In this document: piece by piece, positions 28,913 to 41,518 of the stretch | How the letters are laid out: the number at the start of each line of letters is the position of its first letter | Position numbering within the stretch: position 1 is the stretch's first letter | Source: Diphasiastrum complanatum | Lineage: Eukaryota > Streptophyta > Lycopodiopsida > Lycopodiales > Lycopodiaceae | Length of the DNA: 64,000 nt | NCBI GenBank assembly: GCA_029204225.1 | Contig: CM055113.1 | Span: forward strand, 22,329,605 to 22,393,604 | Reading direction: 5' to 3' | Made by a program: the position numbers and the translations under genes | The notes under the pieces: generated by a model | What the model was told of the DNA's origin: nothing | What the model saw: the letters and a program-made list of their open reading frames with translations, nothing else | Database searches by the model: none

Positions 28913-29467
28913 TATGGGACACCATTTTCATATTGGGGTCATATGTACATAATTAAACCTAGTGAGCGTTTTCCAAATGCCGGATTGGGCATATTTTCAT
29001 TGATGATCATTGAAGTTCCCTTGAACAGTGCCATCACATTGATGCCGTACGCATCACCCCAATACAATTGGGGTGATTGGCATGCTTTGTGTCATCACCA
29101 ATCGAAGATGCAAATATATGGTTTGAATGCCAATGCATGTTCATTGGAGGAAAGGCGCATGCAAGGAAAGATAGTTACAAAGGCAAATCATATGTACATT
29201 GATGGATGCCCATATGTACATGGCAACATTGTAGCGTACATCAATAGTTCTATAGGCCACCCTTCTTTAACCAATTGTGATTTTGAGGAACGCACAAATG
29301 GACAAAAAGAGTTTTTTTCTAAAAATGTGAAGGGTACTTATGTGATGGTATGTGTGATTAGAACAATCAAATCTGGAGAGGAGTTATTCATAGAATATAG
29401 TTACAATCGTCCTTTGCCAAGATGTGTACAAGAGGCTTTGAGCCAAACAAATCCATGTACTCGATGA
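28913..29467 (+). CDS. SET-domain protein upstream of a TNP2 transposase, copy 1
   Basis: Open frame of ~175 codons from ATG 28943; similarity to copy 2 (39318-39890, minus) begins ~30 bp earlier. SET-domain landmarks are visible in order: AGLGIFS (the G-x-G loop that holds S-adenosylmethionine), YINSSIGHPSLTNCDFEE (position of the NHSCxPN motif), and GEELFIEYSYNR (position of the GEEL-x-x-DY motif with its catalytic Tyr). The Tyr is kept, but the usual NHS is NSS and no Cys-rich pre- or post-SET module is present. A methyltransferase fold is well supported; activity and substrate are unknown. It lies 245 bp upstream of the transposase frame in the same direction, the same order as in copy 2, and could be an exon of that gene. 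Confidence 0.75.
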   Translation, partial: YGTPFSYWGHMYIIKPSERFPNAGLGIFSLMIIEVPLNSAITLMPYASPQYNWGDWHALCHHQSKMQIYGLNANACSLEERRMQGKIVTKANHMYIDGCPYVHGNIVAYINSSIGHPSLTNCDFEERTNGQKEFFSKNVKGTYVMVCVIRTIKSGEELFIEYSYNRPLPRCVQEALSQTNPCTR

Positions 29468-29712
29468 ATCAAACATATAAATTCTTGAATGGATGGTTTT
29501 TATCTACTTACATATGATGACATTGATTATGTTTAATGTATTCTATTATGATTTGTGTTGAGTGCATTGTTAGATATTGCTAGTTTGTATTAAAATTTCA
29601 AATTTGATGGATGATTTCACTAGATGTTGTCATATAATTAAGCATTTGTTAATTATCATCTAGCTCTAGCGACACCAATAATAGTAGGCCATGAGCTAAA
29701 TCCAAAAATAGG

Positions 29713-30920
29713 ATGGCGTACGATGGTCCACATATAAATCAATTGTCTCGTCGACAGTGTAAAGGATTAAGACAAATGATGAAAATTGATGAAAGACAAG
29801 ATCATGATTATGCAAATCGGCCTCAATGTCATCGTAGCTCTTCTAAATCAAGTTAAAGTGCAGACAACGATGCATCTATGCATGATGAAAATGAAATCAT
29901 GGATAATTTAATAAATGATGTATACGAACATCATGATGTGGAAGGATCACACGTTGAAGAAGCTTTTGTGAGTGCCGAGGAGAACATGTTAAGAGAAGAA
30001 ATGAACACACCTCTATACCCTGGAGCAAAGACTTTTGGTTTGGCTACAACGTTGCTTTTATTAAACCTCCAAGCAAAATACAAATGGAGTAACGCAAGTG
30101 TTACATCTTTATTTGGATAAAGATAATTAAAATATTTTCTATCTTGTAATATATTTTGTCTTGCAAGCAAGTTTTGACTGTACATGTACTAAGTAAATTC
30201 ATTTGGTTCTGTACAAATTATTGTGTAAGATACTCCTAGAAGGAAAGACTATGCTAGAGACAAGATCCGAGGCACGTAAGACGTTAAAGTCATTGGAAAT
30301 GGACTACAAATTGCATCATGCATGTCCAAAGGATTGCATCTTGTATCGAGGTGAGTTTCAAGCACTTAGGAGATGTCCGATATATGACACTCCTTGTTAT
30401 AGAGATGGTTTACAAGGGACTATATTCCATGCAAGGTGCTACGACATTTTCCAGTAATTCCACGATTGCAACGAATATTTTGTTGCAAGTCCCTTGCAGA
30501 GCTTATGGATTGGCATGCAAATCATCGTTCTTTAGATGAGATAATGAGAGTTCCCTCATATTCACCTTCATGGAAACACATTGACAAACAATATCCAAGT
30601 TTTGCGGGTGATTCTAGAAATGTGTGATTTGGGCTTGCAACGGACGGGGTGAATCCTTTTTCTGTGAAAGCAAGCACATGGTCTACTTGGCCCGTGGTTT
30701 TGGTGAATTATAACATACCACCTTGGTTGAGCATAAAAAAGGGTCATCTAATGCTAGCACTTCTTATTCCTGGAAAACATATAGTGAAAATATGGATGTT
30801 TACCTTGCACCCTTAATTGAGAAATTAGAAATAATTGATGAACGTATCATAATTTCAAAAGCTAGATTTGAGGAGGAGTTAAAAATTTGCCTATGTTGGC
30901 AAATCTAGCTATGTCAAATA
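29713..30920 (+). pseudogene. CACTA/En-Spm TNP2-type transposase, truncated copy 1
   Basis: Starts at ATG 29713 (MAYDGPHINQLSRR), matching the acidic linker of copy 2. A TAA interrupts it at ~29854. The 29878-30120 frame ends at an apparent exon border (ASVTSLFG), and the core resumes at 30203 with DYKLHHACPKDCILYR, a signature of Transposase_21. A frameshift near 30440 leads to RHFPVIPRLQRIF, and a TGA after SRNV (30625-30627) precedes FGLATDGVNPF. Homology ends near 30800-30920, so the second half of the core, DUF4218 and DUF4216 are missing. Non-functional. Confidence 0.8.
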
Positions 30921-30927
30921 ATGTAAA

Positions 30928-31867
30928 TTATGTACATAAGTGGGCCCCACACATATGAGACCATGGAGAGTTGTATGTCGATCGTGTCAGATCATAACCA
31001 ATTACATCGTCCACGCCTGTCAAAACATCAAAGTTGTACAGAGCTGGTCTTGTAGCATTGCTATCAGTCACATCATGAGCATTGATATCATCTACACTGG
31101 TGAGAATATCTGAACTATACCTAATCCATTTGAAGTTTGTACTATTATTATGATTGATATCTTGCACGCCAGTGAGGAAATCAGAATTATATGTTGTTTT
31201 TGTTGTTCTTGTTGTGATTGAAGGTAGTCGTACATTGCTTATGTGTTGATGATCTATTGTAATTGCGATCATAATAAGTGTAATACTCATTCATTATCTC
31301 GTCAAATGATACGTGCCCAACATTCGTAGCATATAAAGAAAGTTTCGATACACACCATATCATCGATTTATTCGGTGAGTAAAATGGGACTCCATCATCT
31401 GCCATGGCATTTTGAATGGTTTTTTCATTTGTTACCGATATTAACTTTACAGTGGCAAACAACTGATTTTTGTCAAAATTGCAGTAACCTTTGAAGCTAG
31501 CTGAACAAACTATATTTCCATCAAAATCCATACAATCAACAATATCATTGTTGTTATAAATATGACATGCCAAGACTGCAAGATCGTCAATCTTCACCAC
31601 GTCATTGTTATCCCACAATAATCTGTTTGCCATTAAGTCCAAAAATTTATCATAAATGTTTGCAAGATGAGTGATACCCGTCTGTGGGTATGGCAATGGA
31701 CAATCCATCTTGAGCACTTTTGAGATACTCACCATGCATTTATTTGAGCCAATTTTGCGAAAGAAACACATCTGGCTTGGTTGAATGTTCAAAATTTGAC
31801 CGAATGCAACGACTTCTTTTTGATATAGCAAGACAATGCGGACATTTTTCTCACGATCGTTTTCCAT
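30928..31867 (-). CDS. DUF8039-like transposon protein with a triple LTGVDD repeat
   Basis: A 226-codon frame (31867-31187) overlaps a second frame (31290-30928) by ~100 bp, implying an intron or one frameshift. The first part (residues ~8-85, VRIVLLYQKEVVAFGQ to LPYPQTGITHLANIYDKFL) resembles DUF8039, a domain of plant CACTA proteins that usually precedes a C48 protease; this is a tentative match from pattern only. The second frame shows three ~29-residue repeats with core Y-N/S-x-D-x-L-T-x-V-x-D-x. It is opposite in strand to the adjacent TNP2 remnant. It may be the second gene of a CACTA element. Confidence 0.4.
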
Positions 31868-32080
31868 TGCAAGCCTTACACACAGAGAGAGAAATTATGA
31901 TGTCAACATACGTTGGAACAAACATACGTACAAATTATGTAGATGTAGATTTATAACACACAATGTAAATAGCAGGATAAATATACCCAGGTTTTGAAAT
32001 TGTTTGAAATTATCTCAAAATAGTTTTATGTAATTTAAATATCTTTATAAACTATTAGTGGATATTCCTTAGCCTTTCGC
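31868..32080. other. Spacer, no gene seen
   Basis: AT-rich spacer between the DUF8039-like frame and the minisatellite. Confidence 0.3.
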
Positions 32081-40507: not shown

Positions 40508-40840
40508 AAGCATGAAACATAAATTAATATATAACACAAACCGTAAACCAGTAGCACACAAACACACGCACGCACACACATACCCACCCACACTGACCCT
40601 AAACACACATGAAGAGAAAAATAGAGAGAACATTATAGAGTGCTAATCAAAACTCCCGAACCACACGATTATATCCTACTCTAGAATGTCACCACATGCT
40701 CCCTCCCTATGGCATTTGGGCTTTTTTGTGGAACTCATCTTCCAACAAAAAACATTTTAACCACGTCTTTAACGGAAGAAAACAAGGGCTACACACCTTC
40801 CTAGAATTGGGAGTGTTGGTTACCTTTAACTCTTTCATGA

Positions 40841-40948
40841 TCTCTCTCTCTCTCTCTCTCTCTCTCTCTCTCTCTCTCTCTCTCTCTCTCTCTCTCTCTC
40901 TCTCTCTCTCTCTCTCTCTCTCTCTCTCTCTCTCTCTCTCTCTCTCTC
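40841..40948. repeat. (CT)n microsatellite, 108 bp
   Basis: Second pure CT repeat, 334 bp from the first, in the same element and orientation. Confidence 0.98.
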
Positions 40949-41002
40949 GTGAATGAGTCTATTATGGGTGATTGAATATGGAAATCAAGATTAACTACAT
41001 CT

Positions 41003-41165
41003 AGTCATTCTATTTGGATTTTTTCTTTTAGAAGCAAGTGAGAGATTAACTTCATCTAATCATTATATTTGGATTTTTTCTTTTAGAAGCAAGTGAGAGA
41101 TTAACTTCATCTAAATATTCTATTTGGATTTTTCCTTTTAGAAGCAACTGAGAGATTAACTTCAA
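41003..41165 (+). repeat. 55-bp tandem repeat, three units
   Basis: The word TATTTGGATT recurs at 41011, 41066 and 41121, and each unit carries TTTTAGAAGCAA(G/C)TGAGAGATT. Non-coding. Confidence 0.85.
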
Positions 41166-41239
41166 AGTATCGTGGCACTCATCCTATCGCTCAATATTTA
41201 TTGGCCAAACTATACTTCAAGTGTCATAAGGGTCAAAGA

Positions 41240-41518
41240 TTAAAGCATTTTCGAAAAACACTTTAAAGAGTTTACCTCTCGTATTCTTGGATTCTCTGTG
41301 TGCACTCCATTGGCCCAAATATGATCGTTGACAATCCTCCTTGTCCGAATCCTAAGGCCTTTGCATTGTGTGCATGTACATGGTATCCTCTCATCATATT
41401 CTGATTGAAACTGGTCCACAATCCAATTGCAAATTGCACAAATTCTTTTAGTGTCATTCAAGTGAAAATTGACGTATTGTAACATGTGACAAAAATTGAC
41501 AAAATAGTCTTTGTACAT
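41240..41518 (-). CDS. Transpos_assoc-like N-terminal domain of the TNP2 element
   Basis: 92 codons with CTCTQCKGLRIRTRRIVNDHI followed by WANGVH, matching the Cys-x-Cys-x2-Cys plus VxxHL pattern of the transposase-associated domain found at the N-terminus of plant En/Spm TNP2 proteins. It is collinear with SET and TNP2 on the minus strand and marks the 5' side of the element. Between it and the SET frame lie the two CT repeats and the acidic frame. Confidence 0.55.
   Translation of the reverse strand: MYKDYFVNFCHMLQYVNFHLNDTKRICAICNWIVDQFQSEYDERIPCTCTQCKGLRIRTRRIVNDHIWANGVHTENPRIREVNSLKCFSKML

Follow-up and report, generated by a model that had tools for sequence, protein, structure and literature searches.

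Chromatin marks keep transposons silent, and only a few elements are known to encode a protein able to write such marks. A stretch of 64,000 nucleotides from the clubmoss Diphasiastrum complanatum (G000:C22:22329605-22393604, hereafter the window) raises the question of why a SET frame stands ahead of a TNP2 transposase in two places, and whether it belongs to the transposon. In the genome searched (1,744,706,496 bases in 5176 contigs), a SET core lies upstream of TNP2 on the same strand at 20 of 40 loci, with the N-terminal tail of SET alone at 2 more. SET occurs in five subfamilies, is under purifying selection between four of them (A-D) and diverges in step with TNP2; it is thus a well-supported standing part of this TNP2 lineage, in agreement with the initial annotation. 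On balance, we lean towards a scheme in which a clubmoss CACTA/EnSpm (TNP2) lineage gained a SET exon between the exon of the Transpos_assoc (TA) domain and the transposase exons, and in which its gene would yield two proteins, one of which, TA-SET, would methylate in the element's favour.

The SET frames and their element

The features of the two element copies, and of the retroelement next to one of them, are as follows (PF numbers are Pfam families, and L numbers are TNP2 loci elsewhere in the genome).

36034-43798, minus: minus-copy stretch common to other subfamily A copies, by blastn against L016-L025 with extensions; neither element end lies inside the window
41276-41410, minus: TA exon with a phase-0 donor, GAG/GTAAAC, also in L016, L021 and L025; PF13963 match below the cut-off
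40343-41275, minus: predicted TA-to-SET intron of 933 nt, enlarged by GA runs and a 55-bp tandem repeat
39318-40342, minus: SET exon, from the acceptor TTTTGCAG to its own stop, frameshifted; the unbroken exon in L017 gives 343 amino acids
38513-38995, minus: first transposase exon (Ser/Asp-rich linker), phase-0 acceptor ATATAG/GATTCT
37296-38516, minus: TNP2 core (PF02992) in two frames, 38516-37692 (E 1.1e-49) and 37535-37296 (E 1.8e-8)
36028-36762, minus: DUF4218 region (PF13960) in two frames, 36447-36028 and 36762-36505
28910-29467, plus: plus-copy SET frame (subfamily C), 5' side lost, own stop; PF00856 E 4.6e-6
29713-30820, plus: plus-copy linker and TNP2 core, decayed, by blastn to the minus copy; PF02992 E 1.9e-18 at 30628-30813
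27305-28909, minus: retroelement interior that adjoins and truncates the plus copy; RVT_1 at 27787-27305, E 2.5e-10

Both SET frames proved genuine, each preceding TNP2 in the same order and on the same strand. Against a curated PF00856 cut-off of 22.4 bits, the plus frame (28910-29464, stop ending 29467) scores 27.4 bits and the minus frame (39929-39321, stop ending 39318) 30.2 bits (E 6.5e-7). The minus-copy SET exon appears to start further upstream, at about 40342, and frameshifts break it in this copy. The TA-like domain that had been proposed upstream of the minus SET frame was also matched, within 41518-41240 (E 4e-5, 24.1 bits), albeit under the curated PF13963 cut-off of 27.7 bits; the matches in L011 (E 7e-5) and L012 (E 3.6e-4) are likewise below it, and a PF13963 scan of the L015 frame gave no match.

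When compared by blastn, the plus and minus copies are 76% identical over 538 nt without gaps in the SET block and 69% identical over 1139 columns with 53 gaps in the linker and TNP2 block, and no match was found in the stretch between these blocks. The plus copy is cut off at about 28909/28910 against the interior of the opposite-strand retroelement, whose frame 28909-28292 has no Pfam match. The minus copy, like its relatives, also holds a decayed duplicate of the end part of SET between SET and linker, at 39006-39159.

Plant CACTA/EnSpm elements share with those described here the TNP2 transposase (PF02992), DUF4218, CAC...GTG ends, subterminal repeats and, on sub-threshold matches, a putative Transpos_assoc domain, whereas the SET exon between TA and TNP2 is an addition, and the ends begin CACAA, not exactly CACTA. 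Elements with CAC..GTG ends are placed in EnSpm in the available passages of one study (PMC12730594). The sequence CACAAGAAC was found at two of two readable 5' ends (L021, L022), where copies start 5'-CACAAGAACACATATAG, and TAGTTGTG at three of three readable 3' ends (L017, L019, L025), where copies end GAGTTTTCTAGTTGTG-3'; flanks differ on both sides, and the ends of different copies agree in the first five bases (CACAA) only. Subterminal repeats of the GCGTGGATAATCCACGC type (GTGGAT/ATCCAC) number 20 and 24 in 700-900 bp at the 5' ends and 9 and 8 in 1000 bp at the 3' ends, against at most 4 in shuffled controls and 2 in a middle stretch. The element might be about 12 kb long, a length put together from several copies, as no fetched copy has both ends.

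Recurrence, divergence and loss of SET

A PF02992 profile search of the genome gave at least 180 matches (best 150 of 5473 candidates scored), and the 40 TNP2 loci were hand-picked from about 150 listed matches, including one of the 22 in a cluster on C1 and none from contigs numbered above 23, so that the SET fraction is a rough one. The first 20 loci were read at 10 kb each, and 11 of them (L012-L017, L019-L021, L024, L025) have SET ahead of TNP2 on its strand, six of these (L012, L015, L016, L017, L021, L025) with TA further upstream; no SET was found in the other nine (L009, L010, L011, L018, L022, L023, L026, L027, L028). The second 20 were read over 901 bp only, about 1.0-1.9 kb upstream of TNP2, and within it nine have the SET core, two the N-terminal tail only (L048, L053) and nine neither (L039, L040, L042, L045, L046, L047, L055, L056, L057). 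Every SET core found at these loci has the order and strand seen in the window. TNP2 copies without SET, which the initial annotation had regarded as evidence against a standing passenger, are therefore present (nine in each set), yet the SET core occurs at half of the loci and across the five subfamilies. Among the eight TNP2 loci extracted directly by the PF02992 search, SET was found in L007 (the place of L012) and L008. On C1, 22 of the 150 listed PF02992 matches lie within 1.6 Mb (G000:C1:48585244-50202884, outside the window) and form a local TNP2 cluster, in which many matches share one in-frame TAG, and the single locus read there (L026) has no SET.

A genome search with the SET frame (best 150 of 2624 candidates scored, hence a lower bound) gave best 150 matches that are all 88-100% identical and belong to one subfamily. 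Among these 150 listed copies, 35 keep an open frame of at least 303 amino acids without an inner stop, and the commonest length is 347 amino acids (30 copies); 22 lie on contigs numbered above 23, and some of these share their score with a copy on a chromosome and may be assembly duplicates. Between the best-150 SET and best-150 TNP2 lists, 15 pairs within 10 kb were observed against 0.26 expected, and in 14 of them TNP2 follows SET on the same strand, their starts 0.9-2.0 kb apart, the fifteenth pair being on opposite strands. How often a SET copy has a TNP2 partner is judged from the TNP2 side only.

Thirteen copies fall into four subfamilies, namely A (the window minus copy, L016, L017, L019, L020, L021 and L025), B (L015 and L024), C (the window plus copy) and D (L012, L013 and L014). 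The two window copies, which are no more than about 11 kb apart, could be taken for one chance insertion doubled by local duplication, as the initial annotation had considered. However, they belong to different subfamilies (dS, the synonymous divergence, about 1.2-1.3; 1.8 for TNP2 by another pairing) and the arrangement recurs on many chromosomes, by which this explanation is ruled out and its probability brought close to nil.

Between the window copies, the ratio of non-synonymous to synonymous divergence (dN/dS) is 0.12 for SET (bootstrap 0.055-0.19; 67 synonymous differences over about 109 sites and 60 non-synonymous over about 428) and 0.146 for TNP2, and the two other reading frames of the SET pair, used as a control, gave 1.5 and 1.3. 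Between subfamilies it ranges over 0.09-0.39 for SET and, where dS could be estimated, 0.09-0.21 for TNP2, dS of TNP2 against subfamily D being mostly saturated. Within A, B and D, where dS is low, SET gives 0.31-1.24 and TNP2 0.53-2.0; being mostly nearer 1 for SET, these values would fit decaying copies, as expected. Ratios near 1, which had been named as a sign against a maintained SET, are thus confined to close copies within a subfamily. They would also suit an unselected host fragment that merely hitchhikes (Pack-type capture), and host-gene capture is described as common in plant CACTA elements in the part of the source available (PMC8616336), but the low ratios between subfamilies, the same rate as TNP2 and the conserved exon borders make such hitchhiking very improbable.

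The proportions of synonymous differences in SET and TNP2 correlate at 0.98 over 78 pairs, a figure that is descriptive only, the pairs being drawn among related copies. Amino-acid identities of the SET core and TNP2, respectively, are 71 and 72% for A-B, 70 and 71% for A-C, 54 and 55% for A-D, 74 and 71% for B-C, 54 and 58% for B-D, and 49 and 47% for C-D. The SET and TNP2 trees, built from 10 of the 13 copies (without L014, L019 and L025), agree: in both, D separates (100), the A copies form one group (100) and the B copies another (99), and C joins B at 68 in the SET tree and 56 in the TNP2 tree. The divergence in step, the matching trees and the selection between subfamilies together indicate that SET has been inherited with the transposase since before the subfamilies split, under similar constraint. 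Across several diverged subfamilies, a clubmoss TNP2 lineage has retained a SET exon that changes about as fast as the transposase, and a SET kept by selection suggests that it serves the element in managing its chromatin or its movement.

Among the copies without SET, one deletion took out both TA and SET in L022, and in L018 and L023 homology starts at the linker. A fifth subfamily, E, is represented by L043, which has TA, SET and TNP2 in that order; its SET is 24-28% identical to the window SET and matches the family profile at E 1.9e-13, and with its stops read as X it covers positions 1-104 of 105 of the Pfam SET domain (E 5.5e-6). The relatives of L043, namely L004 and L006 (both outside the 40-locus sample; 90-95% DNA identity to L043) and L011 (72-95% by block), continue on both sides without the roughly 737 bp that hold the SET exon, and the SET-less joint lies inside an intron, with short similar sequence at its edges. 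Loss in this group appears more likely than gain in L043, because A, B and D also have SET between TA and TNP2 (C has lost its upstream side). As SET-less sister copies exist, SET is not needed in cis, and close relatives with and without it (L043 vs. L004, L006 and L011) offer a natural comparison.

The SET-less copies L004, L006 and L011 also bear on whether the SET protein might restrain its element, by repressive marks on element copies or by a modification of the transposase that limits copy number. SET enzymes can write repressive marks, and copies freed of SET would accord with such a role; nevertheless, a self-limiting enzyme should be lost readily by each element, yet SET is kept in step with TNP2, and we regard restraint as distinctly improbable.

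Splicing layout and predicted products

The junction of TA and SET can be read in subfamilies A, B and D, subfamily E being known from one decayed copy. In A, the TA exon ends GAG/GTAAAC and the SET exon begins TTTTGCAG/AAGAAG, with an intron of 933-957 nt; in B (L015) the borders are GAG/GTATAT and CTCTTGCAG/AATAGT, with 89 nt; and in D (L012) they are ATG/GTACGC and TTTGTAG/GTAAGT, with 110 nt, all in phase 0. Two GA runs and the 55-bp tandem repeat fill this intron in the window (40374-41164), and the subfamily A intron is about ten times as long as that of L015 or L012. The SET exon closes with its own stop codon: most A copies and C use TGA, B and D (L012, L014) use TAA, and in L017 an indel has shifted the end. 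In A, B and D alike, the first TNP2 exon opens at a phase-0 acceptor and lacks a common start codon, the exons of D being broken soon after, and the transposase frame does not continue the SET reading frame. From the missing shared start and the phase-0 acceptor it follows that the transposase needs an upstream exon, for which TA is the natural partner. Such a layout occurs in protein P0004, which lacks SET but has TNP2 and DUF4218, along with a weak match to TA (E 0.0056, below the cut-off).

These observations, namely the stop after SET, the compatible phases, the transposase without a start of its own and the layout of P0004, point to a single gene with TA-SET and TA-TNP2 as its two predicted products. 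Whether SET is instead spliced to the transposase, as the initial annotation had asked, can be judged from the same borders. The same order, strand and close spacing would be compatible with one fused transposase polypeptide; however, SET carries its own stop in A-D, and candidate donors near the SET end are out of phase with the linker acceptor in A and B. A search with a 993-amino-acid query returned 10 proteins, none of which lists SET among its Pfam domains. Fusion by splicing was therefore rejected on the SET stop and the splice phase, and we give it a very small chance. A single open frame in L025 (5069-5890) runs from mid-SET into TNP2 across a deletion, which makes it a chance fusion frame.

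In the two-product scheme that we favour, one pre-mRNA would give two proteins that share the TA end, which probably binds zinc and DNA. Use of the SET exon would give TA-SET, while its skipping would give the TA-TNP2 transposase. In maize En/Spm, TnpA and TnpD likewise come from one gene, one of them being the transposase, although TnpA has no SET domain. TA would bring the SET protein to element copies, where it might methylate histones (or the transposase) in the element's favour, for instance by easing silencing or opening chromatin for transposition, and by acting in trans it could let SET-less copies move too. More tentatively, TA-SET may be a DNA-guided histone methyltransferase that marks the element's own copies genome-wide and so helps them to escape silencing, a role that would have been kept for as long as the subfamilies have been apart; we consider this possible rather than probable.

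Several points weigh against the scheme. Both products are read from splice phases and not from transcripts, and single copies have lost a splice site (the donor in L017, the acceptor in L016). The N-terminal tail of SET is poorly conserved, with 24-46% identity between subfamilies. In all 13 copies of A-D, the NHSC motif position described below reads NSSI, NSSY or NISY, and activity could be lost. A structure prediction of the SET frame with a nine-sequence alignment reached a mean predicted local distance difference test score of 35.9. Elements with TA and TNP2 and without SET occur at several places, including L004, L006 and L011.

The SET protein, related systems and other features of the window

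Pfam SET was matched above the cut-off in both window copies, in proteins P0001 and P0013, in L012, L017 and L021, and in L043 when read through, while single frames of L024 and L043 (its longest unbroken one) gave no Pfam match for SET. A conserved motif DFGSSLALD, followed by LVDD, precedes the variable tail and the SET core. SET enzymes usually carry an NHSC motif, for S-adenosylmethionine binding. The changes at this position might mean that TA-SET has lost catalysis and serves as a DNA-binding helper of the TnpA kind, retained for protein contacts or regulation of the transposase, and separate helper proteins are usual in CACTA elements, which are given two open reading frames, one of unknown function, in the part of the source available (PMC8978399). 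On the other hand, the catalytic-type tyrosine of ELFxxY is kept in 11 of the 12 A-D copies that cover it (L014 has N) and in L043, which reads NNSC and ELFVDY. A catalytically dead helper thus seems unlikely to us, and methyltransferase activity of the SET protein is plausible on these motifs.

The best protein match of the minus SET frame is P0001, the hypothetical protein O6H91_01G035400 [Diphasiastrum complanatum], which is 89% identical, so that a SET 'gene' annotated in a lycophyte, such as this one, can be part of a transposon. P0013, an ENA record of 272 amino acids, is 48% identical and has a related N-terminal stretch, VDFGAMLSLEVDD; should its source be another species, the family would extend beyond the D. 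complanatum genome. A PDB sequence search with the single SET frame gave no match up to E 1, the best of 21 PDB matches to a nine-sequence SET profile had E 0.12, and a scan of IMG/VR with the SET alignment gave 18 pattern matches, none of them a relative. P0014, P0015 and P0017 are distant SET-like proteins with an IDGDPVRCSN and an AYINS motif (SET profile E 8.5e-9 to 0.33).

SET domains have met transposases elsewhere. In SETMAR (Metnase) of primates, a SET domain is likewise joined to a mariner transposase; that protein is a domesticated host gene, however, and not a standing part of a mobile family. HarbingerS and MuDR transposons of Phytophthora with SET genes have been reported (Kojima and Jurka 2014, cited in PMC12730594); as far as the citing passages describe them, they too are DNA transposons with a gene of the SET histone-methyltransferase type, but of other transposase superfamilies and another host group. 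A proto-Helentron of Phytophthora infestans carries an intronless SET open reading frame, similar to yeast Clr4, beside its replication gene; it is a rolling-circle element, and no TA domain is mentioned in the passages available (PMC4067079). The transposase described here is of the TNP2 type, not the Harbinger, MuDR or Helentron Rep/Helicase type. Fungal transposons, EnSpm among them, carry a TET/JBP dioxygenase thought, according to the passages available, to act on host silencing (PMC12730594); the enzyme is element-coded and the superfamily partly the same, but it oxidizes 5-methylcytosine in DNA and is not a SET protein, and the hosts are fungi. In the open-access literature searched (titles, openings of abstracts and passages), no SET-carrying CACTA element and no SET-carrying DNA transposon of plants was found. 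The suggestion that such a passenger was undescribed thus holds for CACTA elements and for plants, where SET would be new as far as these sources reach, but not for DNA transposons at large, SET being already known from oomycete Harbinger, MuDR and Helentron elements (PMC12730594, PMC4067079).

Around the two element copies, a minus-strand frame of 235 amino acids without a Pfam match lies open at 31190-31894, beside the plus copy, and a 115-bp unit is repeated 11 times in tandem at 32079-33326. Arrays of a 10-bp unit of the GGTCATCTGC type (34347-36017) adjoin the 3' side of the minus copy. Long direct and inverted repeats, 83-95% alike, are nested in the left third of the window (3879-9721 and 14709-22591), and a RING-H2 finger frame (PF13639, E 7.4e-13) lies on the minus strand at 46296-46976.

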